From Spiribacter halobius (GTDB lineage Bacteria; Pseudomonadota; Gammaproteobacteria; Nitrococcales; Nitrococcaceae), in contig NZ_CP086615.1 of NCBI RefSeq assembly GCF_020883455.1, positions 3,162,001-3,226,000 of the forward strand: a stretch of DNA of 64,000 nt. The letters run 5' to 3'. Positions 16,120 to 33,891 of the stretch are shown here, piece after piece. Under the pieces are notes generated by a model. It ran no database searches. It was not told the origin of the DNA and saw nothing but the letters and a program-made list of their open reading frames with translations. A program made the position numbers and the translations under genes. Within the stretch, counting starts at the first letter, position 1. Every line of letters begins with the position of its first letter.

Positions 16120-16248
16120 TCCACCAGGAAGCGCACGGGGGACAAGGCGCAGGTGAGCAGCGGAAGACATCAGACGCCGGCGGTGCACGAGATGGACGCT
16201 CTGTGCTATCACCAGGGGAACTCGGGTCAACAGGATCCCTTGCTATAC

Positions 16249-16545
16249 ATGAGACTCTCTCAGCCGGAACAAGACGCCATAATCGATCTCGCTCGAAAAC
16301 ACTTTGGCGATAGTGCCGAGGTCTGGCTGTTCGGGTCGCGCGTCGACAACGAGCGCCGCGGCGGCGACATCGACCTCTACGTGGAGACGGACCGCGACGA
16401 CATCCTGCGGGCTCGCGCCGCCTTCAAGGCAGCACTTGCCCGCAAACTCGGGGAGCAGCAAATCGACCTCATCGTTCGGCCACGGCAGCGCCCGCCCACC
16501 GCCTTCGAGCGCCATGTCTGCCACCAGGGCATCCGGCTGCAATGA
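16249..16545 (+). CDS. MNT-type nucleotidyltransferase (antitoxin of a HEPN pair)
   Basis: A 98-residue minimal nucleotidyltransferase. The motif GSRVDNERRGGDIDL gives the GS...DxD active site, followed by a third acidic strand (QQIDLIV). In HEPN/MNT type II systems this protein AMPylates or sequesters the HEPN RNase. ATG 16249 is the first codon that fits the family length. Its stop overlaps the next start as ATGA, so the pair is translationally coupled. Confidence 0.85.
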   Translation: MRLSQPEQDAIIDLARKHFGDSAEVWLFGSRVDNERRGGDIDLYVETDRDDILRARAAFKAALARKLGEQQIDLIVRPRQRPPTAFERHVCHQGIRLQ

Positions 16546-17060
16546 AATATGACGCCACTGCCGCGCAGATCTTCACGGAAGTATTCGCCGAAGCCGCGCG
16601 CTCGGCGCGAAACCTCGAATCGTCGCTTCGGCGCGGCAGGAGCCAGGGCTGGCTTCCGGTAGCCGAGGACGCCTCGCCGGAAGCATTCGACGAGGACACG
16701 AAGGACCACCTCGACGCATTTCGTGCCCGCTTCTGCGACCTGCAGGATGCCCTCGGCCGCAAGGTCTTTCGATCGCTGCTTTTCCTGGAACAGGAGGCAG
16801 CGAGCGAGGCCACGATGCTGGATGTGATCAACGCCATGGAAAAGCGCGGTCTGATCTCTGGCTTCGAGCGATGGAGCGAAGTCCGTGAGGTGCGAAACGC
16901 CCTTTCCCACGACTATCCGAAACAGAGCGTCGACCGGGTCACGGCTCTTAACCGGGCACTTGAACTCGCGCCGGAGCTACTGGATGCCCTGCAGCGCACC
17001 AGGCATTACGTTGAGAACCGCATCGGCCTCGAACTGCCAAAGCGGCAACCCCCATCGTAG
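16542..17060 (+). CDS. HEPN-domain protein (probable toxin)
   Basis: A 172-residue helical protein with the HEPN RNase motif RNALSHDY (Rx4H, near residues 118-125) after VREV. It directly follows and overlaps the MNT gene, the standard MntA/HepT-like order. It most likely acts as an RNase toxin that the nucleotidyltransferase neutralises. The fold and the tandem arrangement support this. Target RNA is unknown. Confidence 0.82.
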   Translation: MKYDATAAQIFTEVFAEAARSARNLESSLRRGRSQGWLPVAEDASPEAFDEDTKDHLDAFRARFCDLQDALGRKVFRSLLFLEQEAASEATMLDVINAMEKRGLISGFERWSEVREVRNALSHDYPKQSVDRVTALNRALELAPELLDALQRTRHYVENRIGLELPKRQPPS

Positions 17061-17434: not shown

Positions 17435-18202
17435 TCAGCGAATGCCGTCCAGCAGCGCCCGTATATACTGCGCCGGGACCGCGTAGGAGATACCGCTGGG
17501 GTCCTCCAGCACCCGCTCCTTGCTACCCTTCACGAAGACACTGTTAAGAAGGCCGACAACCTCGCCGGTCTCCGTGTCATAGACCGGACTGCCACTGTTC
17601 CCGGGATACGCGGTGGCATCAAGCTGAAACACTCGGAAAGGGCTGCGCAGGCGCCGGATGGCCTCCGCATCCAGCTCGCGGCCACGATTCGCCGGCGTAA
17701 TGATGGGGGTGATCGCGCTGACAATCCCCCGGTGCGTCACCGGATAAAGACCCAGAACCGCGCCGATGGGGAACCCGGTGAATGCGTACCCCTCGCCCTC
17801 GCGCACGCTGTCCGAGTCGCCGATCTGCAGAGCGGGCAGTGGTCGCCCATCGATCGCCAGCACAGCGATATCGTGCTCGGAGTCCGACCGGCGCAGCGTA
17901 GCCGGCCGCCACTCGAGCCGCTCCCCGCGCCGGAAGAAAATCGCGAGCTGTTCCCGGTTTTCCTCGTCCAGCACCGTCGGCAGCACGTGATCGGCCGTAA
18001 CCACATGGCGGCCTTCGAGCACGACAAAGCCGGTGCCGAGAAGCTGGGAGGGCGGCCGGCGAGTGGCCTGGTAGGTGCCGACGCCGACGATCGCCGGCTT
18101 GATCCGCTCGATGGTGTCGGGCAACTCCTGCGCCGACACCACCGGCACGAGCGCAAGGGCAGCCAGCAGGAGCGTCGCGGCCTGGCGAGGCAATCGCAGC
18201 AT
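17435..18202 (-). CDS. Periplasmic trypsin-like serine protease
   Basis: A 255-residue exported protease. The signal peptide MLRLPRQAATLLLAALALVP is cleaved near VVSA. The chymotrypsin-fold triad is visible: His in VVTADHVL, Asp in SEHDIAVLAI and Ser in YPGNSGSPVYD. There is no PDZ domain, so it is a short Do/Deg-like protease (S1C type). ATG 18202 has GGAG 7 nt upstream. It faces the HEPN gene and its own upstream region is shared with the divergent glycan locus. Confidence 0.88.
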   Translation of the reverse strand: MLRLPRQAATLLLAALALVPVVSAQELPDTIERIKPAIVGVGTYQATRRPPSQLLGTGFVVLEGRHVVTADHVLPTVLDEENREQLAIFFRRGERLEWRPATLRRSDSEHDIAVLAIDGRPLPALQIGDSDSVREGEGYAFTGFPIGAVLGLYPVTHRGIVSAITPIITPANRGRELDAEAIRRLRSPFRVFQLDATAYPGNSGSPVYDTETGEVVGLLNSVFVKGSKERVLEDPSGISYAVPAQYIRALLDGIR

Positions 18203-18441
18203 GGTGACACTCCGTGAGTGGCGGTCGTTCGGTATCAGCGCATCACCCAAAACGTACACCACCGGGCGCGCTCCAACATCTGTCGAAAACCTTTACACCG
18301 AGACACTCACTGGCGTCCGACCAAGGCGCCCACCAGCTGCACAGCGCGGAACGTCAAGGGAATCAGCCGATTCGGCGCAAATCGTGCATGCCTGAATACA
18401 GCCACGGTGACGGGCGAGTACGTGGTGAGGACCGGAGGCGA

Positions 18442-18473
18442 TTGCCAATGGGTAAAATGTGACATAGATTACA
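18442..18473 (+). promoter_or_regulatory. Candidate promoter and CRP/FNR-like site before the glycan locus
   Basis: TTGCCA (18442-18447), a 17-nt spacer and TAGATT (18465-18470) form a plausible sigma-70 promoter 60 nt before the first gene. Overlapping it, TGTGA-CATAGA-TTACA (18458-18473) matches the CRP half-site pattern TGTGA-N6-TCACA at 9 of 10 positions. The two cannot be occupied together, which would fit repression. Both calls rest on short motifs. Confidence 0.35.
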
Positions 18474-18529
18474 GAAATAGAGAGAGCGGTTATTGTAACC
18501 GCAGATCTCCCAACTGACGGGCACCCGCG

Positions 18530-19180
18530 ATGAAGCAGGACGAACCGCGCAAGCCGGCCGAGTCAGAGGCGGCACATTCCGCGCCGGAGCAGTCGCCGGA
18601 CCGGCGGCGGCGGTCTTTGCTCAAGGGCATCACCGTCACTGCACCGGTGCTATTGACCTTGCCGAGCCGGCGCGTCTGGGGGGCGGATGGCAACTGCACC
18701 ATCTCCGCCATGACCTCGGCCAACCTCTCGCGCCCGGAGCGTACCGCGAGCTGTGAAGGCTGCACGCCCGGGTACTGGATGAACAATCCGGGGCAATGGC
18801 CCGAAACCTTCGACCCAGGCACGCCGTATGCGGAAAAGGGCAGTAACTGCTTCAACAAGGACGGCACGCCGTTCCACGCGGACTACCTGTTCGAGAAGTC
18901 CGTCAACGCCAATTTCGCCGACCTCACGCTGATGCAGGTCATGCGCCGCGCGCGTTGCAAGGACACGAAAGACGTCTACAGCGATCCCTTCGAGCTGGGC
19001 TTCCACGCAGCGGCGGCTCTGCTGAACGCCGCCGATCCCCGCGTCGAGTTCGGCTATGGCTGGTCGGAGATCGTCGAGATCTACAACGCCCGGGTGCACG
19101 ACGATCAGGAAGGGCTCAGGGCCGACCTCATCATGCTGAACGAGCGGTATTGCCCACTGGCGGCGGACGACTCGCTCTGA
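18530..19180 (+). CDS. Secreted GYW-motif protein with Tat-like leader
   Basis: A 216-residue protein. Residues 1-50 have a basic region (RRRRSLLKG) and a hydrophobic stretch (ITVTAPVLLTLPS), resembling a Tat or Sec leader. The mature part has a CEGCTPGYWMNNPGQWPE motif, like the CTxGYWKNH motif of surface proteins with varied C-terminal anchors, with paired Cys residues around it and later at RRARC and YC. No function is established. It is the first gene of the kinase/chaperone run and is a candidate client of that module. Confidence 0.75.
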   Translation: MKQDEPRKPAESEAAHSAPEQSPDRRRRSLLKGITVTAPVLLTLPSRRVWGADGNCTISAMTSANLSRPERTASCEGCTPGYWMNNPGQWPETFDPGTPYAEKGSNCFNKDGTPFHADYLFEKSVNANFADLTLMQVMRRARCKDTKDVYSDPFELGFHAAAALLNAADPRVEFGYGWSEIVEIYNARVHDDQEGLRADLIMLNERYCPLAADDSL

Positions 19181-19214
19181 GCCGCGGCCCCGGCGGGGCC
19201 AGGAGCCGCGTCCC

Positions 19215-19520
19215 GTGCAAGACTCCGCGACAACGCCGCTGACACTCTCACCCGGCTGCCGCTGGCGCACGTGGGAGGGCGAGAGCGTACTCTACGACAC
19301 GCGCAGCGACGCCACGCACTACCTGAATGCTTTCAGCACCCAGGTCCTCCATTGCATCGAACAGGGCATTGCCGAGCCCGATGCCATAACCCGACGCGTG
19401 CGCTCGGCGCTCGGTCTGCGCGCGTGGGTGGCCACACAGCGCGATGTGCATCGCGCGCTTGCGGAGCTGTGGATCGCCGGCATCATCATTGCGGCCGAGG
19501 CAGAAAAGGACGCGCCATGA
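19215..19520 (+). CDS. PqqD-like peptide chaperone (HPr-rel-A system)
   Basis: A 101-residue protein with the PqqD-type winged-helix pattern: RWRTWEGESVLYDTRSDATHYLN, FSTQVLHCIEQG, then a C-terminal helix ending AELWIAGIII. PqqD proteins bind substrate peptides for modifying enzymes. This branch is known from loci with an HprK-related kinase. The stop overlaps the kinase start as ATGA, so the two are coupled. It follows the GYW-protein gene by 34 nt. Confidence 0.82.
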   Translation: MQDSATTPLTLSPGCRWRTWEGESVLYDTRSDATHYLNAFSTQVLHCIEQGIAEPDAITRRVRSALGLRAWVATQRDVHRALAELWIAGIIIAAEAEKDAP

Positions 19521-20482
19521 CTCTGGCCGAGTTGCCCCTGGGGGAGATCCGGCGGCGCCTGCGGTCCGATCTGGGCCTGCGCCTGGGCATCGGGCCATTC
19601 GCGGTCGCTCTCCGGACCACGGTGCGAGACATACCCGCCGCATTGTGCACGCTCTATGCCGACTTTCCCGTGGTCGACGAAGCGGCGTTTGTCGACTTCC
19701 ACCTCGAGCTGGACCGTCCCCGCGGGCTGCGTCGCTGGCTCGCGCCCCAGGTCAGCTTCTCGCTGGATGGCCGCGTCCCGTTCAAGCCCTTGCCCCTGGC
19801 CCACGCTCCGGCGCTGCAGGAGTGGGCACTCAACTGGTGCATCTACACGCATGCCCATCAGTATCTGATCATCCATGCCGCCGTCGTGGCCCGAGGACCA
19901 CACGCGCTCATCCTCAGCGGCCCCCCGGGCTCCGGCAAGAGCACCCTGACCGCCGGGCTGATCCACGACGGCTGGCGCCTGCTCTCCGACGAGCTGGCAC
20001 TGGTCCTGCGCGATGGCAGCACCCGCATCCAGCCGCTCGCGCGCCCGGTGGGGCTGAAGAACGACGCGATCGGGCTCATCCAAGCGCGCTCGCCCGGGGC
20101 CGCGTTCGGCCCCCTCGCCCGAGACACGCTCAAGGGGACGATCGCCCATCTACGCCCGCCCTCGGAAAGCGTCACTCGGGCGCACGAGATGGCGAGGGCG
20201 GCCTGGGTGGTCTTCCCCCGCTTCGCCCCGGACAGCGACACGAGGCTCGAGGGGGTGCCACGCGCCCAGGCGTTTCTCGAGCTCGCCAGGAACAGCTTCA
20301 ACTACGACCTCCTCGGCGTGCGCGGTTTCGACTGCCTGGCGGATCTTATCGAGGGCTCCAGCACACATAGCCTGGTGTACGGCAACCTTGATCAAGCCCT
20401 CCGGGAACTGGCCGCGCTACCGAAAAGCGAGCCTGAGCATGTCCAAAGAGCTACTGCTGCGAGCGCTGCGGCGCCCGGCTGA
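19517..20482 (+). CDS. HprK-related kinase A
   Basis: A 321-residue protein related to HPr kinase/phosphorylase. The P-loop GPPGSGKST lies near residues 136-144 after HAAVVARGPHALILS, with LLSDELALV downstream as the Walker B-like acidic site. The HPr-binding end of true HprK is not seen, so the substrate is unlikely to be HPr. It sits between the PqqD-like chaperone (ATGA overlap) and a nucleotidyltransferase (44-nt overlap), the arrangement of the HPr-rel-A system. The phosphorylated partner is unknown. Confidence 0.85.
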   Translation: MTLAELPLGEIRRRLRSDLGLRLGIGPFAVALRTTVRDIPAALCTLYADFPVVDEAAFVDFHLELDRPRGLRRWLAPQVSFSLDGRVPFKPLPLAHAPALQEWALNWCIYTHAHQYLIIHAAVVARGPHALILSGPPGSGKSTLTAGLIHDGWRLLSDELALVLRDGSTRIQPLARPVGLKNDAIGLIQARSPGAAFGPLARDTLKGTIAHLRPPSESVTRAHEMARAAWVVFPRFAPDSDTRLEGVPRAQAFLELARNSFNYDLLGVRGFDCLADLIEGSSTHSLVYGNLDQALRELAALPKSEPEHVQRATAASAAAPG

Positions 20483-21518
20483 GCTGCCGGCACGCCGTGC
20501 ACGCGACTGGGACCTGCTGATCCGCCAGGCCCGCCAGGCGCAGCTGCTCGCCCATCTGCACGCCATGGGCGAACAGGCGGGCTGGCTGGACGCAGTACCC
20601 CCGTCGCCGCGATGGCACCTGGACGCGGCAGCGCTACAGGCGGAGCACCTCCACGGCTCGGTCAACCGCGAGCTCGCCGCCGTCGCAAAGGCACTCGGGG
20701 CACTGAACCAGCCGGTGGTACTGCTGAAGGGTGCAGCCTACGTGCTTGCCGGCCTGCCGGCGGCACGCGGCCGCCAATTCAGCGATATCGATCTGCTCGT
20801 CCGCCGTGAGCGGCTGGACGAAGTGGAGCGCGCCTTGTTCCTCCACGGCTGGGTCAGCACCAAGACCGATGCCTACGACCAGCGCTACTACCGGCGCTGG
20901 ATGCACGAGCTGCCGCCCCTGCAGCACAGCGCCCGTGGCAGCATCCTGGACGTGCACCACAACATCCTGCCGGACACCGCGCGTCATCACCCCTCGGGCG
21001 AGCGGCTGATCACCGCCGCCGAACCCCTACCGGCCCATCCTCCGTTCGCCATCCCGTCGCCGGAGGATCGGATTCTCCACTGCGCCACCCACCTCTTCTG
21101 CGAGGGCGAGTTCGATCACGGGCTGCGTGACCTGGTGGATCTGCGCGCCCTGGTGGCACCGCTCGGAGACGATCCCGCCCAATGGCAGCGGCTGACCGAA
21201 CGGGCGGACGACATGGACCTCTCGCGTCCGCTCTATCACGGCCTCATGACCGCTCGCGCCGTGCTGGGGGTCACCGTTCCGCCGGAACCCCTGGAAGCAC
21301 TCGCGCGGGGCAGCGGAACCACACGGCCCAGCGACCGCTGGCTGCTTCCGCTCTTCCGCACCGCCGTGCGCGGCGTGCACCCGAGCTGCGAGCCCCGCGG
21401 CGCGGGCCTCGCCCGCTGGCTGCTTTACGTGCGCGGTCACTATCTGCGCATGCCCCTGCACCTGCTTCTCCCTCACCTCACACGCAAGGCCCTGCGGGGG
21501 CGCGAGGCCCATGCCTGA
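20439..21518 (+). CDS. Nucleotidyltransferase family protein
   Basis: A 359-residue protein of the uncharacterised NTP_transf_5-like family. The core is VVLLKGAAYVLAGLPAARG followed by QFSDIDLLVRRE, which supplies the DxD active site (residues about 90-125). A C-terminal helical domain is rich in His and Arg. It overlaps the kinase gene upstream and the VanZ-heparinase gene downstream (8 nt), indicating one transcript. Related proteins occur near PqqD/HprK-like genes in exopolysaccharide loci. The acceptor is unknown. Confidence 0.8.
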   Translation: MSKELLLRALRRPAELPARRARDWDLLIRQARQAQLLAHLHAMGEQAGWLDAVPPSPRWHLDAAALQAEHLHGSVNRELAAVAKALGALNQPVVLLKGAAYVLAGLPAARGRQFSDIDLLVRRERLDEVERALFLHGWVSTKTDAYDQRYYRRWMHELPPLQHSARGSILDVHHNILPDTARHHPSGERLITAAEPLPAHPPFAIPSPEDRILHCATHLFCEGEFDHGLRDLVDLRALVAPLGDDPAQWQRLTERADDMDLSRPLYHGLMTARAVLGVTVPPEPLEALARGSGTTRPSDRWLLPLFRTAVRGVHPSCEPRGAGLARWLLYVRGHYLRMPLHLLLPHLTRKALRGREAHA

Positions 21519-24500
21519 GGCATCAGATCCACATGTCGAGCCCGCCGAGCGCGGGTCCACGGGAGGCGGCGCACTGACGCTTCTGCTCGGCGGCTACCTG
21601 CTGCTGCTCGCCTACGGCAGTCTCTTCCCGTTGGTCGGCTGGCGCCCGCCGCTGCACGACCCGCTGCAGCTACTCCGGACGCTCGATGCCCAAGCCCTCG
21701 GCGGCAGTCAGCTGGCGCTCAACCTGCTGGTCTACATACCGCTCGGGTTGCTGCTCGGGATAGGGCTTGGCCGACGTCTCGGCACACTCCCGGCGCTCAT
21801 CCTCGTGACCATGGCAGGCGCCACGTTCAGCCTGTCCATGGAGCTTCTCCAGGCCTACCTGCCCGCACGCCAGACGTCGGGCACCGACCTGGCCGCGAAC
21901 ACGCTTGGGACGCTGGCAGGGGCTCTCCTGGAGCGCCTCGCTCGGGCGGACACGCCGCCGGGGCGGGTGATGCGCCACTGGCGGCGCAACTGGCTGCTAC
22001 CGGGCCTAACCGGCGATCTCGCCACGGGAGCGCTGATCCTCTGGCTGCTCGCTGAGCTCGTACCCTTCGCGCCAGGGTTCACCCTCGAAACGCTGCGCAC
22101 TGGCCTGCTCCCGGTGGAGCGGGGGCTGCTGGGCGTTGCGCCCGTCGCCTGGCATCAGGCCCTCTCCCACGCCCTCGAGCTCGCCGGCCTGGGGCTGCTG
22201 CTGTACACGGTAGGCAACCGCTGGAAGCCCTGGCCGCTTGCATTCATGGCGCTCGCGGGGGCGGCGCTGCTCCTGAAGATCCCCGTCCTCAGCCGCGCCC
22301 TGACCCTCGAGGCCCTCATCGGTCTCGCCACGGCAGGGGCGCTCCTGGCGCTGCTGACCCGCGCAAACCGCAAGAGCGCTGCGTTGCTCGCATGCGCGCT
22401 CCTGCTCGCGGGCGCCGCCGCGGGCGGCCTCGGGGGCTTGGGCATCGAGGGCGCGCCCAATCGGGCCTTCAACTGGACGCCGTTCCGGGGTCATCTTCCC
22501 GGCGTGCTCGGCCTCGCCGGCATCCTGGAAAGCCTCTGGCCATACCTGGCCGCAGGCTGTGCCCTGCGCAGCTACAGTCGCCACCCGGGGCTGCGGCGCT
22601 GGCTGGCCATTGGTGGCGGCCTGCTGGTGCTGGTGCTTACCGGCGCCGTCGAGCTCGCCCAGACCGGCATCCCGGGCCGCTATCCGGACGTCACCGACAT
22701 TGCGCTGCCGCTGATGGGCTGGGCCGCAGCCTGGTACCGCTGGCGCACCGGCAGCTCCGAGCGCGCACGGGTGCGCCCGCTGGCGCTACGCCCGCTCGGC
22801 CTCTGGGCACCACAGGGTATTATCCTGCTGACGGCGGCCGGCCTGCTCGGCGCCAGTGTCGTCTTCGGCCCCACCGGGGAGGCCGAGCAGGGCCCGTCCA
22901 CTACGCCGGCCCCGGAGTTTCCGGAACCCTCGGACCTGACGCCGGTCTCCCTGCCCGGATTCCGCCACGAGCACCCGAGACTTCCCGCTCCGTCGGCATC
23001 CGACATCGAACGCCTGCGGGCCGAGAACCCCGGCTACCTGGAGCGCCACCGGGAGCGCGCCAGCGGCGGGGCGGGGAATCTCTACTCCGTCACCCTCACC
23101 GCCTTCCTCGACCCGGGCAGTCAGGACCTAGGGCGCCTCCACGAGCGGCTCATGGCGCTCGAGTACGACTGGCGAGGCCACCAGCAGGCCAAGCCCATCG
23201 CCCTCGCCTATGACTGGCTCCATGATCAGTGGACCGCCGAGCAACGCGCTCAGCTCCAGGACAAGCTCGTGGAAGGGGGCGAGTACCTGATCGGCTTCAT
23301 CCGCGAGCAGCGCCTCTCGCCCTACAACGTCTACCTCTACAACAGCCCTTTCCAGGCGCTGGTCGCCGTCGCCCTTGCCGGCTACGGAGATACCCCCCGG
23401 GCGGATCCAATCATGCGCTTTACCCAGGACCTCTGGGAGGAGCGCGTGCTGCCGGTCTGGCGCCAGGTCATGGGGGAGAACGGCGGCTGGCACGAAGGCG
23501 GCGAGTACGTGGGCATCGGCATCGGCCAGGCGATCTATCAGGTGCCGGCCATGTGGCGCTCGGCCACCGGAGAGGATTTCTTCGCCAGCGAACCCGGCAT
23601 CCGCGGCTTTCTGGACTTCCTCGTCTACCGCAAGCGCCCCGATGGGACGGACTTCCGCTGGGGGGACGCCGGGCACTTCAACAACCGCGTCCCCGACCGT
23701 GTACCCCTCGCCCTCGAGTACGGCCACGCCGCGGCCTACAGCCTCGGGAACCGCCCGCGCATCGAGCCGACGGCCTGGCCCTGGGGTCCGCTGCCCCGAC
23801 CCGAGCTCTACGACCCGGACGCGGTCAGGCGTCTGCCCTGGGCCAGGCTCTTCGATGGCCTGGGGCTTGTGGTCGCGCGCAGCGACTGGTCGGGCGAGGC
23901 CACCTACGTAACCTTCAAGGCGGGCGACAACTACTGGTCCCACAGCCACCTGGACCAGGGGGCCTTCACGATCTACAAGGGCGGGCCCCTCGCCATCGAC
24001 AGCGGGCTGTACGGGCCGAAGTACAACTCCGACCATCACATGAACTACACCTACCAGGCGATCGCGCACAACGTCGTCACCGTCACCGATCCCGACGACA
24101 CCGTGCACGCCCCGCCGCGCAAGGATGACGAGTCCAGCCGGCGCATTGCCAATGACGGCGGCCAGCGCCGCATCGGCTCGGGCTGGGGCGTGGAGGCCGC
24201 CCCCATCGACCTCGCCGAGTGGCAGGCCAAGCGCGAGATCTACGAGACGGGCGACATCCTCCACCACCGCATCGAGGAGGACTATCTCTACGTCGTCGCC
24301 GACCTCACCGCCGCCTACACCAACGCCCTCTCCGGCGACGGTACCTTCTCCCACCGCACGCGGCGGGTGGAGCGCTTCCTGCGCACCTTCATCTATGACC
24401 GACGCAGCGGCGCGGTGATCGTCTACGACCGCGTCCGCGCCACCGATCCGGACTTCCGCAAGCGCTGGCTGCTGCATTGCGTGGAGCGCCCCGAAGCGGA

Positions 24501-24948
24501 ACGCGGTGGCTTCGAGGTGTTCACCACGGGCACCGGCTCACCCGGGCGCGGGGGGGGGCGGATGCCCGCCGAGGTGCTGCTGCCCGAAGGCGCTAACGTC
24601 AACCCGATCGGCGGCCGGGGCTTCGAGTTCTTCGTCGAGGACCGCAACTACGACGCGGACGGCGAGGTTCAGCGGATCGTCGAGGAGCGCAAGCCGGATG
24701 CCGAACCCGGATCCTGGCGGATCGAGGTCTCCCCGGGCATCGCGAGCCGCGAAACGCGCTTTCTGGTCGTGATGTTCCCTCGCCTGGCGGGCGAAGCGGA
24801 CACCCCGGAGGTCACCCGCATCGAGCAGCCAGACCGCCTGGCCGTGGAGCTGCGCAGCCCGGACGGGGGCACCACTCACTGGTGGTTGATCGATGACCGC
24901 GAGCAGGGCGTGCGGGTGCGTGTCGCCCGGGACGACACGCCGCGGTGA
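21511..24948 (+). CDS. VanZ-heparinase II/III fusion protein
   Basis: A 1145-residue fusion. Residues about 20-150 form a VanZ-like unit (NLLVYIPLGLLLGIGLG, MELLQAYLPARQTSGTDLAAN), and residues 210-415 a second one ending AVELAQTGIPGRYPDVTDIA. A further TM segment at about 434-452 leads to an extracytoplasmic heparinase II/III-like lyase: an alpha/alpha toroid at about 480-720 and a beta-sheet domain with SHSHLDQGAFTIYKGG near residue 811. Heparinase-type enzymes cleave uronic-acid polymers by beta-elimination. A membrane-tethered glycan lyase is the simplest reading. A 9-G run lies at 24550-24558. It overlaps both neighbours (8 nt and GTGA). Confidence 0.85.
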   Translation: MPEASDPHVEPAERGSTGGGALTLLLGGYLLLLAYGSLFPLVGWRPPLHDPLQLLRTLDAQALGGSQLALNLLVYIPLGLLLGIGLGRRLGTLPALILVTMAGATFSLSMELLQAYLPARQTSGTDLAANTLGTLAGALLERLARADTPPGRVMRHWRRNWLLPGLTGDLATGALILWLLAELVPFAPGFTLETLRTGLLPVERGLLGVAPVAWHQALSHALELAGLGLLLYTVGNRWKPWPLAFMALAGAALLLKIPVLSRALTLEALIGLATAGALLALLTRANRKSAALLACALLLAGAAAGGLGGLGIEGAPNRAFNWTPFRGHLPGVLGLAGILESLWPYLAAGCALRSYSRHPGLRRWLAIGGGLLVLVLTGAVELAQTGIPGRYPDVTDIALPLMGWAAAWYRWRTGSSERARVRPLALRPLGLWAPQGIILLTAAGLLGASVVFGPTGEAEQGPSTTPAPEFPEPSDLTPVSLPGFRHEHPRLPAPSASDIERLRAENPGYLERHRERASGGAGNLYSVTLTAFLDPGSQDLGRLHERLMALEYDWRGHQQAKPIALAYDWLHDQWTAEQRAQLQDKLVEGGEYLIGFIREQRLSPYNVYLYNSPFQALVAVALAGYGDTPRADPIMRFTQDLWEERVLPVWRQVMGENGGWHEGGEYVGIGIGQAIYQVPAMWRSATGEDFFASEPGIRGFLDFLVYRKRPDGTDFRWGDAGHFNNRVPDRVPLALEYGHAAAYSLGNRPRIEPTAWPWGPLPRPELYDPDAVRRLPWARLFDGLGLVVARSDWSGEATYVTFKAGDNYWSHSHLDQGAFTIYKGGPLAIDSGLYGPKYNSDHHMNYTYQAIAHNVVTVTDPDDTVHAPPRKDDESSRRIANDGGQRRIGSGWGVEAAPIDLAEWQAKREIYETGDILHHRIEEDYLYVVADLTAAYTNALSGDGTFSHRTRRVERFLRTFIYDRRSGAVIVYDRVRATDPDFRKRWLLHCVERPEAERGGFEVFTTGTGSPGRGGGRMPAEVLLPEGANVNPIGGRGFEFFVEDRNYDADGEVQRIVEERKPDAEPGSWRIEVSPGIASRETRFLVVMFPRLAGEADTPEVTRIEQPDRLAVELRSPDGGTTHWWLIDDREQGVRVRVARDDTPR

Positions 24949-26138: not shown

Positions 26139-29100
26139 ATGGTCACCACCGCCGCCGAGCGAGCGATCCCCGCCACCGGCCCCACCACGGGCCGCCGGTT
26201 ATGGCCGTGGATCACGGCCTACCTGGCGGGGCTCGCGTACGTCAGCTTCATCCCTTTCCGCTACCGGGGGCTGCCGGCGGAGATCTGGTGGCAGCGGGCA
26301 CTGGAGCTGCGCTGGCTGGATCTCGGGCTCGGCAGCCGAGCGGACTGGATCGCGAACCTGGTGCTCTTCGTGCCCTTCGGCATGCTGCTCGTCGCTGCAC
26401 TGGCCCGGCGCCATCGCCACCCCGGCCCCATCGCGGCGCTCGGCGCCCTCTTCGCCGTGCTCCTCACTGCCCTCGCCATCGAGGTGGTGCAGCCCCAGTT
26501 CTCGCCACGCACGGCCTCGCTCAACGACATCCTGGCCGCGCTCCTTGGCGGTGGCCTCGGGATCTCACTGTGGATCGGCGCCGGGCCCCGCATCCTCGCG
26601 AGCCTGCGCGCCGCGGCGCACCCCGGCCTGCCGGGCATCACCGCCGGCCTTGGCGTGTACACCGCGGGCTACCTGCTGTTCAGCCTTTTCCCCTTCGACT
26701 TCATCACGAGCGCCGACGAGCTCTCCCGCCGGCTCGCCACGCGGCCGCCCGCGCTGCTGATAAGCGGCTGCGAGGACGAAGCCCGCTGCGCTGCGCGACT
26801 GCTGCTCGAGACGCTGACCGTGCTGCCCATTGGCGCCTGGCTTGCGCTGCGGGCCAGGCTGCACGGGCGAGCCCTCGGAACCGCACCCGTGTTCCTGGCC
26901 GGCCTCGCGCTCGGCGTTTGCCTGGAGACCCTGCAGATCTTCATCTTCCACGGCGTGAGCCAGGGCGCCTCCATTGTCGCGCGGGGTGTCGGCAGCGCAG
27001 CCGGAGCCCTGGCCCTGACCCACGCCCTCAGCACCCCGCCCGAGCGGTTGCGCCGACAGCTGAGAACACTCGCACTGGCCGGGATCATTCCCTACGCCAT
27101 CGGCCTGCCCCTCCTGAACGGCCTCACCGGGAGCTCGCGGCTGCCGGTGAATGAGGCGCTGGCACGCCTCTCCGAGGTATCGTTCCTCCCCTTCTACTAC
27201 CACTACTTCACCTCCGAGGCGGAGGCGATGCAGAGCCTCGTCTACCACCTCGGGCTCTACGCACCCATCGGTGCCGCGCTCTGGACATGGGGTCGCGGTG
27301 CGGCCACGGCCGGGATCGCCGCCACCGTGGCTGCGCTCATCGCGCTGGTGATGGAAACGGGCAAGCTCCTGGTGGCCGAGCTCCATCCGGACCCCACCAA
27401 CCTCCTGATCGCCGCAGTCGGGGCCGTGCTCGCTCATGCGGTACTGGAGCGCGGGTTCACCGCGCTGTCAGCGCGCAGCCCCCCACTGCCCGCAGGACCG
27501 CCAAGTCGAGTTCCCGCCGCCGCGGCAGAGAGCGCCGGGCGCCCGCCGGGTGACTCGGTGGCCGTGAGCACGAGCGTCTGGCAGCAGGCGCCCCGTTCGG
27601 GAAGACGCATCAGGCGCGGTGCCCGGCGCCACGCGCCGGCACGCCCGAAGCGGCCCTCCCGCTACCGGGCGCGAGCCGTCGCGCTCCTGCTCGGACCGAC
27701 AGCGCTGGCCGCGGCGCTGTTCTGGCCAATGGCCGGACTGCTGCTGGTGATCGGCCTCATCGCCTACGCCGCCTGGCTCTATCGCGACCCCGGGGCCTGG
27801 CTGCTCGCCGTTCCAGTGGCAGTGCCTCTGCTCAACTTTGCGCCTTACACAGGGCGATACTTCGTCAGCGAGCTCGATCTGCTGCTCGCCGTCACCCTGG
27901 CCGTCGGACTCTGGCGCCGACCACCGGCCGCCCACGGCCTGCACCTGCCGCGCCTCGCCGCCACGGCGGCGGGGCTGTTCGCGGTTTCCTGGGTGATCAG
28001 TCTGGCCACCGGCCTGTGGCCCCTGCCACCCCTCGACGCCAACGCCTTCGCCACCTACGACAGCCCCATGAACGCCCTGCGCGTTGGCAAGGGCTTCGCC
28101 TGGGGTGTGGCGCTCTACCTCCTCGCGCGCCGCCTCCCGAGCGCCGAGGCCGAGCGCGTGGGTCATCGCTTCACCGCCGGCATGACCGCCGGCCTCGCGG
28201 CCGTCGTGGCTGTCGTGCTCTGGGAGCGCAACGCCTACCCCGGGCTCCTCGACTTCGACAGCGGCTACCGCGTCACCGCACTCTTTGCGGACATGCACGT
28301 GGGCGGCCCGACCATCGAGGCCTTTCTGGTGCTGACGCTGCCCTTCGCCCTGCTTTGGACATGGCAGGCGCGGCACCTGATCACGTTCCTGTGCGGGCTC
28401 ACGCTACTGGCTGGCGCAGCCTACGCGGTCCTGGTCACCTACTCCCGAGCCGGCTATCTCGGGGCGGCCCTCGCCGCGGCAGCGACCCTCGCCGGGCTCG
28501 CATGGCTGGCCTGGCGCGACGGCGATCGGCTGCGCGCCATCGGGTCGCTGGCCGCCCTCGTACTGCTGCCGCTGCTCGCAGCCGGCGTGCAGGGCGGCAT
28601 GGGCAGCTACCTCGACTACCGCCTCACCCGTCTGGAGGCCGATCTGGAGGGGCGCCTCGAGCGCTGGCAACACGCCCTTCGCCTCGCCGAGGCTGGCGCG
28701 CTGGAAGCCACCTTGGGCCACGGGCTCGGCGCTTACCCGCGCCTCCACGTGGCCGACCGCCTCGCCCGCGAGGAGCGCCTGCCGGTGAACTTCGCCCACT
28801 CGGCGGAGCCCGGCGACGGCCTGCTGCGCCTCAGCCCGAGCCAGCCGAGTTTCGTCGCCCAGCGGGTCGCCGCGATGCCCGGGTCACGGTTGACCGTGGA
28901 GCTCCAGGTGCGCCCCGTGCTCGCCGAGTGGGGCGCGCTCGCGGTCGTCCTCTGCGAGACCCACCGGATGGAGTGGGTACGCTGCGAGTGGCAGCGGCTT
29001 CGGGTGGAAGGCGAGCCCGGCGTCTGGCAACAGCACGAGCTCAGCATTCAGGCTGGCGATCTTGGCGCCGGGCCCTGGTTCGCCCAGCGGGGTCTTGCCT

Positions 29101-29801
29101 TCGGGATCGCCCATTTCGGCGGTGAGGGCATCATCGAAATCGAGCGCGCCGCACTGCTCGACGACGGCCATGACCTGCTCTCCAACGGCAGCTTCACCGA
29201 CGGCCTCGAGCGCTGGTACCACACCACTTCCCGCCATGAGGCCTGGCGCGCCGAGAACCAGTGGCTCGAGTTCTACATCGATCAGGGCCTCCTCGGCGCC
29301 ACCACCTTCACCCTCTTCATCCTGGCCGCGGCGGCCGCTCTGGCGCGCCGGTCCGTCGCCGGCTCACCGGTCGCGCTTGCGGTCCTGGCCGCCCTGGCGG
29401 GCCTATTGGTCATCGCGGTCTTCGCCACGGTGTTCTGGTCGCCTCGGATTGCCATGCTGTTCTGGCTGGTGGCATTCCTGGGGATGGCGAGGGGGCGGGT
29501 GGAGAGGGGGGGGGGGGACGGGGTGATGGGGCGTAGGCCGCGTGCTGCCCGTTTTACACGGCGGCATCGCCCGGCCAAAGCAGGCTTCTCTGGTCACACG
29601 GCTGCATCCACCTCCGATGCCGACCTCATTACCCCATCACCACGCACTCACCCATCACCAACACCCCAGAGCCATAGAATCCGATACGCTTCGTCACAGC
29701 GAGAAAGGCGGCAGGAGCACCATGCGCATCCTCATAACCGGCGGGGCCGGCTTCATTGGATCGGCCGTCATCCGCCATCTGATCCGCGAAACCGAGCATG
29801 A
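26139..29801 (+). CDS. VanZ-O-antigen ligase fusion protein
   Basis: A 1220-residue frame. Residues about 20-440 contain two or three VanZ-like membrane units ([34 protein letters not shown]; then [15 protein letters not shown]; then [14 protein letters not shown]). A basic Pro/Arg linker (445-510) leads to an O-antigen ligase/polymerase (Wzy_C-type) membrane domain with GHGLGAYPR near residue 863. About 170 residues of soluble, carbohydrate-binding-like sequence sit in the loop before [15 protein letters not shown] (near 1037). The last 92 residues follow a 12-G tract and overlap rfbB in another frame. With one G fewer the protein would end at 29526, which is probably the functional end. The role would be polymer ligation at the periplasmic face. 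Confidence 0.82.
29506..29517 (+). repeat. 12-G homopolymer in the O-antigen ligase gene
   Basis: Twelve consecutive G bases lie in the last coding part of the fusion gene. With 12 the frame continues to 29801 inside rfbB. With 11 it stops at TGA 29524-29526. Such tracts slip during replication. They are also frequent sites of sequencing error. Confidence 0.9.
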
Positions 29802-30798
29802 GGTCATCAACCTCGATGCCCTGACCTATGCCGGCAACCTCGCTTCGGTCGCCGAGGCGTCCAACAGCGCCCGGTACCGTTTCATCCACGTCGATATTCG
29901 TGACGCGGCGGCACTGGAGCGCACCTTCGCCGACTCATCACCCGATGCAGTGATGCACCTTGCGGCGGAGTCGCACGTCGATCGCTCCATCGCCGGACCC
30001 CAGGCATTCGTCGAGACCAACATCGACGGCACCTTCAACCTGCTGGAGGCGAGCCGGCGGCACTGGGAGGCACTGCCGGCGGAGCGCCGGGCGCGGTTCC
30101 GCTTTCACCACATCTCTACCGACGAGGTTTACGGCAGCCTCGGGGCCGAGGGCCTCTTCACCGAGGACAGCCCCTACCAGCCGAACTCGCCCTATTCCGC
30201 GAGCAAGGCCGCCTCGGACCACCTGGTGCGGGCCTGGCACCACACCTACGGCCTGCCAGTGGTCACCAGCAACTGTTCCAACAACTACGGCCCCTACCAG
30301 TTTCCCGAGAAGCTCATCCCCCTCATGATCCTGAATGCCGTGGACTGGAAGCCGCTACCGGTGTACGGGCGCGGCGAGAACGTCCGCGACTGGCTCTATG
30401 TCGAGGACCACGCCCGCGCGCTGCGGATGATTCTGGAACGGGGCGCCCTTGGCGAAACCTACAACGTCGGCGGCCTCAATGAGCGCAACAACCTCGAAGT
30501 CGTCCAGACCGTGTGCGGGATCCTCGATCGCCTGATGCCCGACCCGCGCAGCCCACGCGAGCAGCTCATCCGCTTCGTCACCGACCGCCCCGGCCACGAC
30601 CAGCGCTACGCCATCGACGCCACCAAAATCCGCCGCGAGCTCGGCTGGGAGCCCCACGAAAGCTTCGAAACCGGACTCGAGAAGACCGTGCAGTGGTACC
30701 TGGATAACCCCGAGTGGGTGGAAAGCGTGCGCACGGGGGCGTATCGGGAGTGGATGGAGAGGCAGTATGGGGTTGGGGGGGATGGGGGGATGAGGTAA
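29722..30798 (+). CDS. rfbB: dTDP-glucose 4,6-dehydratase
   Basis: This is the second step of dTDP-L-rhamnose synthesis: dTDP-glucose to the 4-keto-6-deoxy sugar with bound NAD. The 358-residue SDR enzyme shows GGAGFIGS (residues 7-14), [21 protein letters not shown], the catalytic YSASKAASD (Tyr/Lys), [18 protein letters not shown] and [20 protein letters not shown] 29722 has AGGAG 4 nt upstream. It overlaps the 3' extension of the ligase frame. The last residues (GVGGDGGMR) are encoded by a G-rich, low-complexity end. Confidence 0.97.
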
Positions 30799-31025
30799 GC
30801 GTGGCCGAATCCCGGCGGCGGGGGCGGCTTCTTCGGGGGCCCGGCCCTGCCGGGCGAATCCCGACCCACGCGGCCGCAGACATTCACCCGCGAAACCAGC
30901 TTCCGCACGAGTGCCAGCCACCCCGTCACCGACTACCCCTTGCCCCAGCCCTCCCCGCAAGCCACCCTCTCAACCACCTCATCACCTCATGACTTCATCA
31001 CTTCATCACCTCATCACCCAATCCC
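30799..31025. repeat. Low-complexity spacer rich in CATCACCT/CATCACTT units
   Basis: The last 60 bases before rfbC are short CATCA-cored repeats (CTTCATCA, CCTCATCA) that run up to the rfbC start, leaving no Shine-Dalgarno site. Related ATCACC units occur at 29627-29671, 32482-32506 (inverted) and 32904-32991. Confidence 0.6.
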
Positions 31026-31574
31026 ATGCACCACACCCCCACCCACATCCCCGACGTCCTCCTCCTTACGCCGAAGGTCCACGGCGACCACCGCGGCTTT
31101 TTCATGGAGACCTGGAACGCCCGTGTCTTCGCCGAGCTCGGGCTCGATCTCGTCTTCGTCCAGGACAACCACAGCCGCTCGCAGCAGGGCACTCTGCGCG
31201 GCCTGCATTATCAGATCCGCCAGCCGCAGGGGAAGCTGGTGCGGGTGACGGTGGGCGAGGTGTTCGACGTGGCCGTGGACATGCGGCGCAGCTCGGCCAC
31301 CTTCGGACAATGGGTCGGGGAGCGGCTGTCGGCGGAGAACAAGCGCATGCTTTGGGTGCCGCCCGGCTTCGCCCACGGCTTCCTGGTCCTCTCAGACGCG
31401 GCCGAGTTCCAGTACAAGTGCACGGACTACTACGCTCCGGAGCACGAACGCACGCTGCGATGGGACGATCCGGACCTCGGGATCGAGTGGCCGCTCACGG
31501 CAGGGAACCGACCGCTACTCTCCGAGAAGGACGCCAGCGGCGCCGCATTCGCTGAGGCGGAGGCCTATCCATGA
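31026..31574 (+). CDS. rfbC: dTDP-4-dehydrorhamnose 3,5-epimerase
   Basis: The third rhamnose-pathway enzyme, a cupin that epimerises C3 and C5. It has 182 residues. Conserved RGFFMETWN, VQDNHSRSQQGTLRGLHYQ (catalytic His), VGEVFDVAVDMRRSS, PPGFAHGFLVLSD and YKCTDYYAPEHERT are all present. The stop overlaps the rfbD start (ATGA). The region before ATG 31026 is CATCACC-type repeat and has no ribosome site. Confidence 0.96.
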   Translation: MHHTPTHIPDVLLLTPKVHGDHRGFFMETWNARVFAELGLDLVFVQDNHSRSQQGTLRGLHYQIRQPQGKLVRVTVGEVFDVAVDMRRSSATFGQWVGERLSAENKRMLWVPPGFAHGFLVLSDAAEFQYKCTDYYAPEHERTLRWDDPDLGIEWPLTAGNRPLLSEKDASGAAFAEAEAYP

Positions 31575-32491
31575 GCGCACCGCGCCTGCTACTGCTCGGG
31601 CCCAACGGCCAGGTAGGCTGGGAACTGCGACGAGCACTCGCCCCGCTCGGAGAGCTCATCGCCCTGGACCGGGATGGCCGTGACGGCCTCCACGGCGACC
31701 TCGGCACCCCCGGCAAGCTTGCCCAGACCGTACACACCCTCAAGCCGGACGCAGTGGTCAACGCCGCCGCCTACACCGCCGTCGATCGCGCGGAGCAGGA
31801 GGCGGACACCGCACGCCAGATCAATGCCCACGGTCCGCAGGCACTGGCCGAGGCCTGCCGGGAGACGGGTTCGCTACTGGTGCATTACTCCACAGACTAT
31901 GTCTTCGATGGCAGCGGCACGGCTCCCTGGCGAGAGGGCGACCCCACCGACCCGCTGAACCTCTACGGCAAGACCAAGCTCGCCGGGGAGACCGCCATAC
32001 GCGCCGCAAGCTGCCGCCACCTCATCTTCCGCACCAGCTGGGTCTACGCGGCCCGCGGCAGGAATTTCCTGCGCACCATGCTGCGCCTCGCCGCCGAGCG
32101 CGACGCCCTCCAGGTCGTCGACGACCAGCACGGCGCCCCCACCGGCGCCGAGCTCATCGCCGACGTCACCGCCCAGGCGCTCCATGCCACACTCCGCAAT
32201 TCAACGCTGGACGGCACCTACCACCTCACGGCCCGCGGTCAAACCACCTGGCACGGCTACGCCCGCCACCTGATCACCGAAGCCCGCGAGGCAGGCTACC
32301 CGATCCGCGTCACCGACGACGCCATCACCCCCGTGCCGAGCGAAGCCTTCCCCACCCCCGCCGCCCGCCCCCGGAATTCACGGCTGGACGTCTCGGAGCT
32401 GGAGCGGGCGTTCGGGCTCCGGATGCCACCGTGGGAGGCTGGGGTGGAGAGGGTGGTTTCTGAATTGGTTGAGGGGGATGGGATTAGGTGA
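31571..32491 (+). CDS. rfbD: dTDP-4-dehydrorhamnose reductase
   Basis: The last rhamnose-pathway enzyme, an NAD(P)H-dependent SDR reductase. The 306-residue product has LLLGPNGQVGWEL (nucleotide binding), NAAAYTAVDRAE, YSTDYVFDGSG, the catalytic YGKTKLAGE and FRTSWVYAARGRNF. It is coupled to rfbC by ATGA. The C-terminal bases run into inverted ATCACC-type repeats, so the last codons (VEGDGIR) may be altered from the ancestral end. Confidence 0.96.
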   Translation: MSAPRLLLLGPNGQVGWELRRALAPLGELIALDRDGRDGLHGDLGTPGKLAQTVHTLKPDAVVNAAAYTAVDRAEQEADTARQINAHGPQALAEACRETGSLLVHYSTDYVFDGSGTAPWREGDPTDPLNLYGKTKLAGETAIRAASCRHLIFRTSWVYAARGRNFLRTMLRLAAERDALQVVDDQHGAPTGAELIADVTAQALHATLRNSTLDGTYHLTARGQTTWHGYARHLITEAREAGYPIRVTDDAITPVPSEAFPTPAARPRNSRLDVSELERAFGLRMPPWEAGVERVVSELVEGDGIR

Positions 32492-32532
32492 TTAGGTGAT
32501 GATGTGAACGAGCAGGGAGGCTCGACAGGGGC

Positions 32533-32928
32533 GTGGAGGCGAAGGAAAGGCCGCATCGTCGTCTTCGGGCGTGGCGCGCGGGGATGTTGCTTGTGAAGGA
32601 TGTCTACGGCATGACCCGGCATTTCCCGCGTGAGGAAGTTTACGGGTTAACGACACAGAGGCGCCGGGCGCCAGTGCCCGTGTGCAGCAACATCGCAGAG
32701 GGGGCAGCCAGAAGCCCGTCGAGGAATTTTGCGCGCTTCCTTGCCATGGCCAATGGCTCGCTCAGCGAGCTCGATACCCAGACCGTAATCGCGAAGGAGC
32801 CCGGCTTCGTCAGGGAAGCATCCGCTCGGGAAGCAAGAATCAACGAAGTATCGGCCCTGGTCTCGGGCCTACACCGCAAGGTGGCTAACGGCCCACCCGC
32901 CCAATCACCTAATCACCCAATCACCTAA
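32533..32928 (+). CDS. Four-helix bundle protein (23S rRNA-IVS family)
   Basis: A 131-residue protein of the four-helix bundle family first noted in 23S rRNA intervening sequences. It shows LRAWRAGMLLVKDVYGMTRHFP, EVYGLTTQRRRAPVPVCSNIAEGAARSPSRNF (in part), then FLAMANGSLSELDTQ. Family members are often inserted in glycan clusters and their role is unknown. The start is a GTG. The last 11 residues ([11 protein letters not shown]) come from the tandem repeat. Inverted ATCACC repeats flank the gene. Confidence 0.78.
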   Translation: MEAKERPHRRLRAWRAGMLLVKDVYGMTRHFPREEVYGLTTQRRRAPVPVCSNIAEGAARSPSRNFARFLAMANGSLSELDTQTVIAKEPGFVREASAREARINEVSALVSGLHRKVANGPPAQSPNHPIT

Positions 32929-32991
32929 TCACCCAATCACCTAATCACCCAATCACCTAATCACCCAATCACCTAATCACCCAATCACCTA
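32904..32991 (+). repeat. 11 tandem 8-bp units ATCACCTA/ATCACCCA
   Basis: Eleven contiguous octamers alternate ATCACCTA and ATCACCCA and end 6 nt before the rfbA ATG (32998). They replace the normal ribosome-site position. Reverse-complement copies (GATTAGGTGATTAGGTGAT) lie at 32482-32500. Confidence 0.9.
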
Positions 32992-32997
32992 ATCGCG

Positions 32998-33891
32998 ATG
33001 CATACACCACCGAACCGAAAGGGAATCATCCTGGCTGGCGGCTCCGGCACCCGCCTCTACCCCGTCACCCACGCGGTGTCGAAGCAGCTGCTTCCGGTCT
33101 ACGACAAGCCGATGATCTACTACCCGCTCACCACGCTCATGCTGGCGGGGATCCGCGAGGTGCTGATCATCTCCACGCCGCAGGACACGCCGCGCTTCGA
33201 GCAGCTGCTCGGCGACGGCAGCCAGTGGGGGATGCAGCTCGAGTATGCGATACAGGAGGAGCCGCGGGGCCTCGCCGAGGCGTTCATCATCGGCGAGCGT
33301 TTCATCGGCGATGCGCCGTGTGCACTGGTGCTCGGCGACAACATCTTCCACGGGCACGACCTCGCCACCACCGTCGCCCAGGCCGCACAGCGGGAGGCGG
33401 GGGGCACCGTGTTCGCCTACGCGGTGCGCGACCCGGAGCGCTACGGCGTGGTCGAATTCGACCGCGAAGGCCGCGCCGTCAGCCTGGAGGAAAAGCCCGA
33501 TCAGCCGCGCAGCCGATATGCCGTCACGGGCCTCTACTTCTACGACGCAAGCGTCGCGGACGTCGCCCGCAGCCTCTCGCCCTCCGCACGGGGTGAGCTC
33601 GAGATCACGGACATCAACAAGCATTACCTCGCGCGTGGGGAGCTGCAGGTCGAGATCATGGGCCGCGGCATGGCCTGGCTCGACACCGGCACCCATGAAT
33701 CTCTCCTCGAGGCCGCCACCTTCATTGAGACCCTGGAAAAGCGCCAGGGCCTCAAGATCGCCTGCCCGGAGGAGATCGCCTTCCGCATGGGCTACATCGA
33801 CGCCTACCAGGTCCGCGCCCTGGCCGCCCCGCTCGCAAAGAGCGGCTACGGCGACTACCTCCTCCGCATGCTGGAGGAGGTGGTGTTCTGA
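32998..33891 (+). CDS. rfbA: Glucose-1-phosphate thymidylyltransferase
   Basis: The first rhamnose-pathway enzyme: dTTP plus glucose-1-phosphate gives dTDP-glucose. The 297-residue product has [35 protein letters not shown] in pieces (pyrophosphorylase signature), [37 protein letters not shown] and [18 protein letters not shown]. No Shine-Dalgarno site is visible because octamer repeats end just before ATG 32998. A decayed 3' copy lies at 37820-38266. Confidence 0.96.

Follow-up and report, generated by a model that had tools for sequence, protein, structure and literature searches.

Layout of the four-gene module

The window analysed here is a stretch of 64,000 nucleotides from Spiribacter halobius (contig NZ_CP086615.1, positions 3,162,001 to 3,226,000 of the forward strand). 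It carries a module of four genes, all on the plus strand, which encode, in this order, an exported protein with a GYW motif (18530..19180, 216 aa), a PqqD-like protein (19215..19520, GTG start; TIGR04353 41.6 bits, cut-off 35), an HprK-related kinase A (19517..20482; TIGR04352 366.4 bits, cut-off 200) and a nucleotidyltransferase of the NTP_transf_5 family (20439..21518; PF14907 184 bits, cut-off 31.2). As the kinase and the chaperone are adjacent and both exceed the NCBIfam cut-offs of the HPr-rel-A system, the module is a member of that system. An earlier note, made from the sequence alone, had described the last three genes as overlapping one another behind the GYW gene, and the coordinates bear this out: the PqqD-like and kinase genes share 4 nt (ATGA), and the kinase and transferase genes share 44 nt. 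The GYW gene overlaps none of them, its stop codon lying 34 nt before the PqqD-like start, and the transferase gene overlaps the following gene (21511) by 8 nt.

The GYW protein has no family match in Pfam or NCBIfam. Its signal, RRRRSLLKG, follows a long n-region and precedes a hydrophobic core (APVLLTL) and a cysteine-bearing mature part. In an RR-anchored alignment of 72 partner proteins (described below), the leader covers residues 24-52 (18599..18685, plus strand), with the twin arginine, the core P39-V-L-L-T43-L and a cleavage-like site near residue 52. The protein thus has the sequence features of a substrate of twin-arginine translocation (Tat), and TatC is encoded in the genome. Just behind the signal stand S59 and S63 (18704..18718, plus strand), followed by the motif CTPGYWMNN (residues 78-86), of which C78-T-P-G-Y-W83 occupies 18761..18778 on the same strand.

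Linkage of the GYW gene and the kinase among relatives

With the GYW protein as a single query, matches were obtained in 14 of the 95 related genomes, while TIGR04352 was above its cut-off in 15. All 14 GYW-positive genomes are among these 15, and every match lies at most about 1 kb from a kinase. The gene was found in none of the 80 kinase-free genomes (Fisher p 7e-16, uncorrected for kinship; because of phylogenetic dependence within the samples, Fisher p values exaggerate significance). A profile of the partner matched exactly the same 15 of 95 genomes, and 17 of its 18 matches adjoin a kinase; its rows were taken from beside kinases, which makes the matches partly circular, whereas the 80 empty genomes are not. 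The GYW protein, proposed as the substrate by the earlier note, is hence linked to the module in relatives, and the idea survives the linkage test. The order of partner, PqqD-like protein, kinase and transferase, whose conservation the same note had suggested as a check, is also kept, apart from two genomes: G068 has a divergent transferase and a partner without GYW, and in G061 the contig stops after the kinase. Because this order recurs, the four-gene arrangement is not a product of chance.

The two proteins also vary together. Within the GYW kind, kinase distances and distances of the mature partners are correlated (Mantel r 0.69, a value reached in none of 5000 permutations). Two genomes carry a pair of modules each, and for all four of these modules the closest kinase and the closest partner agree. 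A scan of contigs with the GYW protein as query gave no match, and a scan with the kinase alignment, which was no census, confirmed at least three loci.

Genes of polysaccharide loci often co-occur, and the exported gene could be a passenger of such a locus, unrelated to the kinase. We regard this as very unlikely, since the GYW gene is missing from all 80 kinase-free genomes, although nine of them have exosortase A (XrtA) above the cut-off (against 11 of the 15 kinase genomes), and since a module on a Vibrio alfacsensis plasmid keeps its partner where the annotation shows no polysaccharide gene within 9 kb.

Partner proteins and their shared leader across the phylum

In a phylum-wide sample, the kinase was above the cut-off in 61 of 398 genomes. 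The analyses of this section are based on 79 loci, made up of 17 kinase clusters of the relatives sample (the window included), three named loci and 59 of these 61 genomes; the other two are the genome of the window itself and G264, whose kinase is split over contig ends. Loci L127-L129 and L131, with the kinase below the cut-off, were excluded by a 150-bit filter, and in place of L065, L071, L081, L083 and L084 longer stretches from the same sites were used.

A protein with an RR signal stands at the module in 72 of the 79 loci, in 71 of them upstream and on the same strand. The leader hidden Markov model (HMM) identified 69 of these partners, L068 and L110 were added by inspection or HMM, and L124 is the one on the opposite strand; the model was seeded with 28 of the 72 and is partly circular for those. 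Three main kinds of partner were distinguished. The GYW kind (n = 28, of which 18 were labelled by a strict pattern and 10 by eye from the alignment) has C-x-x-S-G-x-x-S-G-N followed by C-G-G-x-[ST]-P-G-Y-W, the SCW kind (n = 32) ends in a C-terminal [ST]-C-W-x-S-F, and the sphingomonad kind (n = 9) carries GFTC[FY]ASLQMPRG; three partners fall outside these kinds. RR-leader partners whose mature parts fit the three kinds poorly or not at all are encoded in L064 (4640-5533), L096 (2874-3362) and L109 (2605-3486). Searches of the partners against NCBIfam and Pfam returned no family beyond single chance-level matches.

The GYW motif was considered as the defining mark of the partner and rejected, as it is missing from the majority of partners in the phylum sample, which have the RR leader as their one common feature. 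Judged by sequence, the partner is defined by its leader; the GYW protein of the earlier note stands as the linked partner in the window and its relatives, and its motif does not stand as the hallmark of the family. Across the 72 aligned leaders, the first arginine is present in all and the second in 69, 51 have a proline at a particular hydrophobic-core position, threonine or serine follows four columns on in 62, and the next residue is L, I, V, M or F in all 72. Within the SCW class, the core proline and threonine are each found in 31 of 31. The n-region is long, with a median of 29 residues ahead of the RR. To our knowledge, single residues of the hydrophobic core are not conserved to such a degree in ordinary Tat signals.

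Within the alignment of the GYW kind, S59 and S63 correspond to serine in 26 and 27 of the 28 sequences, and T79 to serine or threonine in 25. The kinase tree tracks the kind of partner (5 changes against 31.7 in shuffles), a result which taxonomy alone could give.

Two plasmid loci, outside the 79, have the module as well. On the Vibrio alfacsensis plasmid NZ_CP140104.1 (L145), a partner, an unannotated PqqD-sized open reading frame (ORF), a kinase and a transferase are situated among acyl-CoA and phosphonate genes; the ORF, at 8697-8951 of L145 between partner and kinase, is absent from the gene table. On a Sphingomonas parapaucimobilis plasmid the four genes come in the usual order, and the annotation calls the partner hypothetical.

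The PqqD-like protein

The AlphaFold2 model of the PqqD-like protein (mean predicted local distance difference test score, pLDDT, 90.8) has the three-strand winged-helix fold of a recognition element (RRE) of ribosomally synthesised and post-translationally modified peptides (RiPPs). The closest solved folds were TbiB1 and TfuB1, the RREs of lasso B1 proteins with their leaders bound, at Z 12.1, 11.9 and 11.8 (Foldseek, VIA-align); the next fold followed at Z 9.4 and the PqqD domain 5sxy at Z 8.4. A profile search of the PDB likewise returned TfuB1 at E 4e-4 and, weakly, TbiB1. The modelled protein therefore appears to be closer to lasso-peptide RREs than to PqqD itself. Among 40 sampled neighbours of the kinase, 38 match TIGR04353 at E <= 0.001. 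The PqqD-like protein was found by HMM at 59 of the 79 loci, which is a lower bound, since ORF boundaries hid some, including that of the window.

The stretch common to all partner classes is the RR signal with its long n-region, and a protein that reads this stretch might be a Tat chaperone, holding the precursor until it has folded while the kinase and the transferase act on the chaperone or time export. This seems improbable to us. The fold comparison puts leader-bound lasso RREs first, and no Tat chaperone is among the rows listed, an absence that excludes nothing; moreover, two conserved catalytic enzymes would be left unexplained.

The kinase and the transferase

Both enzymes look active from their conserved residues. 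The kinase keeps H120, the P-loop GSGKST and D158-E159, and the histidine, P-loop and aspartate of its core align to 2qmh and 1jb1 at E of about 1e-4. The resemblance to HPr kinase/phosphorylase is confined to this core, and no HPr partner is known for the HPr-rel-A system. In the transferase, K97-G98, D116, D118, D171 and H173 are invariant in an alignment of 26 sequences, all of which match PF14907; a PDB search with the transferase profile gave no match at E <= 0.1. The transferase is present in 59 of the 79 locus stretches. Of the rest, 17 genomes were checked and 16 have it; in several it follows the kinase at about 1.8 kb, and in others it lies on another contig.

Additional enzymes accompany some modules. 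A gene for a TPR-sulfotransferase immediately follows that of the kinase in L097 (3435-5216, between kinase and transferase) and in L101 (3635-5335). At 10 of the relatives' loci, though not in the window, related methyltransferase genes (e.g., L058 7522-8265) are found close to the module, several of them directly upstream of the partner; they may encode a further tailoring enzyme.

Genomic context

The window module heads a polysaccharide operon. The gene overlapping the transferase gene encodes a VanZ and heparinase II/III-like protein (21511..24948, plus strand), an operon partner of the module, and it is followed on the same strand by genes for a kelch-like protein, a large VanZ-domain protein (26139..29801) and the dTDP-rhamnose enzymes (29542..33891), namely rmlB (homology from about 29722), rmlC (31026), rmlD (31571) and rmlA (32998). 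Relatives of the large VanZ-domain protein are encoded near three other modules, one of them with a sub-threshold O-antigen-ligase match. Other neighbours of modules include ManC (five loci), NDP-sugar enzymes and a polysaccharide export protein, and the TIGR03087 and TIGR03088 glycosyltransferases of XrtA-type loci also adjoin some modules.

In the genome of the window, exosortase A is encoded 152 kb from the module. In the phylum sample, XrtA was above the cut-off in 25 of the 61 kinase genomes compared with 10 of the 337 others. The distribution is uneven: XrtA is present in each of the 13 kinase genomes that belong to the class of the window and in 12 of 12 of families f87 and f120, and in none of the remaining 36, of which 29 have no PF09721 match at E <= 1e-10 and seven have some exosortase match. 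In 11 of the 23 measured genomes with both on one contig, the module and XrtA are at most 60 kb apart. Membership of the module in the exosortase A system was thus kept only in part, because 36 kinase genomes lack XrtA above the cut-off and the Vibrio plasmid module also has no annotated polysaccharide gene nearby. On the same grounds, exopolysaccharide is the usual but not the obligate setting of the module.

This setting would suit a regulatory switch, in which the kinase and the RRE sense the state of the exported protein or of its signal. An enzyme or regulator of exopolysaccharide would then be phosphorylated, and the GYW protein would be the input of the switch and not its substrate. HprK in its best-known form is a regulatory kinase, modules lie in polysaccharide operons, and exosortase A accompanies the kinase in 25 of 25 sampled genomes of two lineages. 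However, none of the neighbours compared (HPr itself was not searched for) recurs as widely as the RR-leader partner, and in known systems RRE folds serve to bind substrates. Such a switch is accordingly a minor possibility in our judgement.

Between a weak promoter-like site (18442-18470) and the start codon of the GYW gene lies a perfect 7+7 palindrome, GCGGTTA-TTG-TAACCGC (18486..18502, without strand), which may be an operator or a hairpin. No second copy was found genome-wide at up to one mismatch, and the palindrome therefore gives no regulon. Beside the module, a divergent gene (17435-18262) encodes a trypsin-like protease, a relative of which occurs near the modules of L053 and L058. 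Further upstream, a small Polbeta-type nucleotidyltransferase gene (16153-16545) overlaps a gene (16542-17060) with a sub-threshold match to a nucleotidyltransferase-substrate-binding family of Pfam; this pair is presumably of the MNT/HEPN toxin-antitoxin type.

Comparison with known systems

NCBIfam names, in TIGR04352 and TIGR04353, the kinase and the chaperone of the HPr-rel-A system and gives no partner, substrate or function. In the literature searched, no paper was found that names the system or joins its parts to exosortase, and, judged from the listings, none on Tat signals with RREs bears on it.

Two peptide systems offer close parallels. In lasso peptides, HPr kinase homologues phosphorylate the C-terminal serine, and in pseudomycoidin the nucleotidyltransferase PsmN adds one or two hexoses onto the serine phosphate in vivo (PMC8498205). 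The paeninodin and pseudomycoidin clusters resemble the module in having a kinase, an RRE and a nucleotidyltransferase, with the lasso B1 fold being nearest to the RRE of the module, and a sulfotransferase gene occurs in some of these clusters as in L097 and L101. The lasso substrate is a peptide, whereas the proposed substrate of the module is an exported protein of about 130-290 aa. No lasso cyclase (the macrolactam-forming protein C) or B2 protease was found among the window proteins scanned, which cover part of the window genes.

The Linear Polyphosphorylated Peptides (LPP) of Bacillota are made with the trio also seen in the module, namely a discrete RRE, an NTP transferase and an HprK-like kinase, which attaches more than one phosphate to Ser3 of the core (PMC13381572). 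Like the window module, their clusters sit in polysaccharide loci, here capsular ones. They have no macrolactam cyclase, and none was found among the scanned window proteins. The precursors of 35-200 aa, with conserved N-termini and variable C-termini, are similar in plan to the module partners. In contrast, LPP clusters rely on a YxxP motif in the leader, a leader peptidase of the SpI type and an MsbA-like transporter. The precursor of the module lacks YxxP and bears an RR signal of the Tat type; neither an SpI-like peptidase nor an MsbA-like transporter was found in the same set of scanned window proteins. The hosts differ too, as all sampled modules come from the window's phylum, the named ones from Pseudomonadota. 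RRE, HprK and nucleotidyltransferase modification is therefore already known, and what would be new here is that the probable substrate is exported, with a signal of the Tat type, and does not have the leader motif of LPP. The earlier note, which had left the chemistry as not established, did not name these precedents; for the module itself the chemistry is still drawn by analogy.

Proposed mechanism

We consider it likely that the four genes encode a RiPP-like machine for protein modification and that it acts on an exported protein as a whole, which the kinase phosphorylates and the transferase perhaps glycosylates. That the small exported protein is what the module enzymes modify is very probable. 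Given its fold and the linkage, the PqqD-like protein would bind the GYW leader in the cytoplasm. As [YW]xxP, the RRE-binding motif of lasso and LPP precursors, is absent from the GYW protein, the RRE must recognise a different motif, perhaps the signal. The kinase would then phosphorylate a conserved serine or threonine of the mature part; S59 and S63 are the leading candidate acceptors, whose placement behind the signal is reminiscent of Ser3 behind the LPP leader, and T79 of CTPGYW is a second candidate.

By analogy with the peptide systems, from which the kinase step is drawn as well, we infer that the phosphate is the site of action of the transferase. Most likely a sugar is added, as PsmN does in pseudomycoidin, and the dTDP-rhamnose genes of the same operon could, speculatively, supply it. 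The modified and folded protein would leave through Tat, as its signal suggests, and, from the gene context, may work in or with the exopolysaccharide of the cell. Other lineages would use the same machine and the same leader for unrelated mature proteins. Our confidence falls in the order of binding, phosphorylation, sugar transfer and exopolysaccharide role.

A variant, compatible with the rest of this mechanism, is that the transferase adds a nucleotide such as AMP, instead of a sugar, to the protein or its phosphate. PF14907 is named as a nucleotidyltransferase family and the carboxylates D116, D118 and D171 are kept, but the one characterised enzyme of this kind, that of pseudomycoidin, adds hexoses in vivo (PMC8498205). 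Nucleotide transfer is accordingly possible, though less likely than not.

Several observations weigh against the modification machine as proposed. Seven of the 79 kinase loci show no partner, two of them close to contig ends. No single serine or threonine is common to all partner classes, the GYW protein lacks [YW]xxP as described above, and its AlphaFold2 model, built on a 17-row alignment, is poor (pLDDT 54). The transferase of SCW-type loci frequently lies about 1.8 kb away or is unlinked. Furthermore, no activity of LppN, the NTP transferase of LPP, was detected in the test host (PMC13381572), and pseudomycoidin is for this reason the single precedent for sugar addition.

If the machine operates as proposed, RRE-guided modification would be extended from small peptides to exported proteins and tied to exopolysaccharide. 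A broader picture, which we put forward tentatively, is that RiPP-type enzymes (an RRE, an HprK-like kinase and a sugar-transferring nucleotidyltransferase) might form a system widespread in proteobacteria that acts on whole Tat-exported proteins. Before export, it would build a sugar phosphate on a conserved serine, so that the protein could prime, cap or anchor exopolysaccharide, one conserved leader serving unrelated cargo. In any case, a system so far present in databases only gains a testable partner family, a shared leader, candidate acceptor sites and a likely chemistry.

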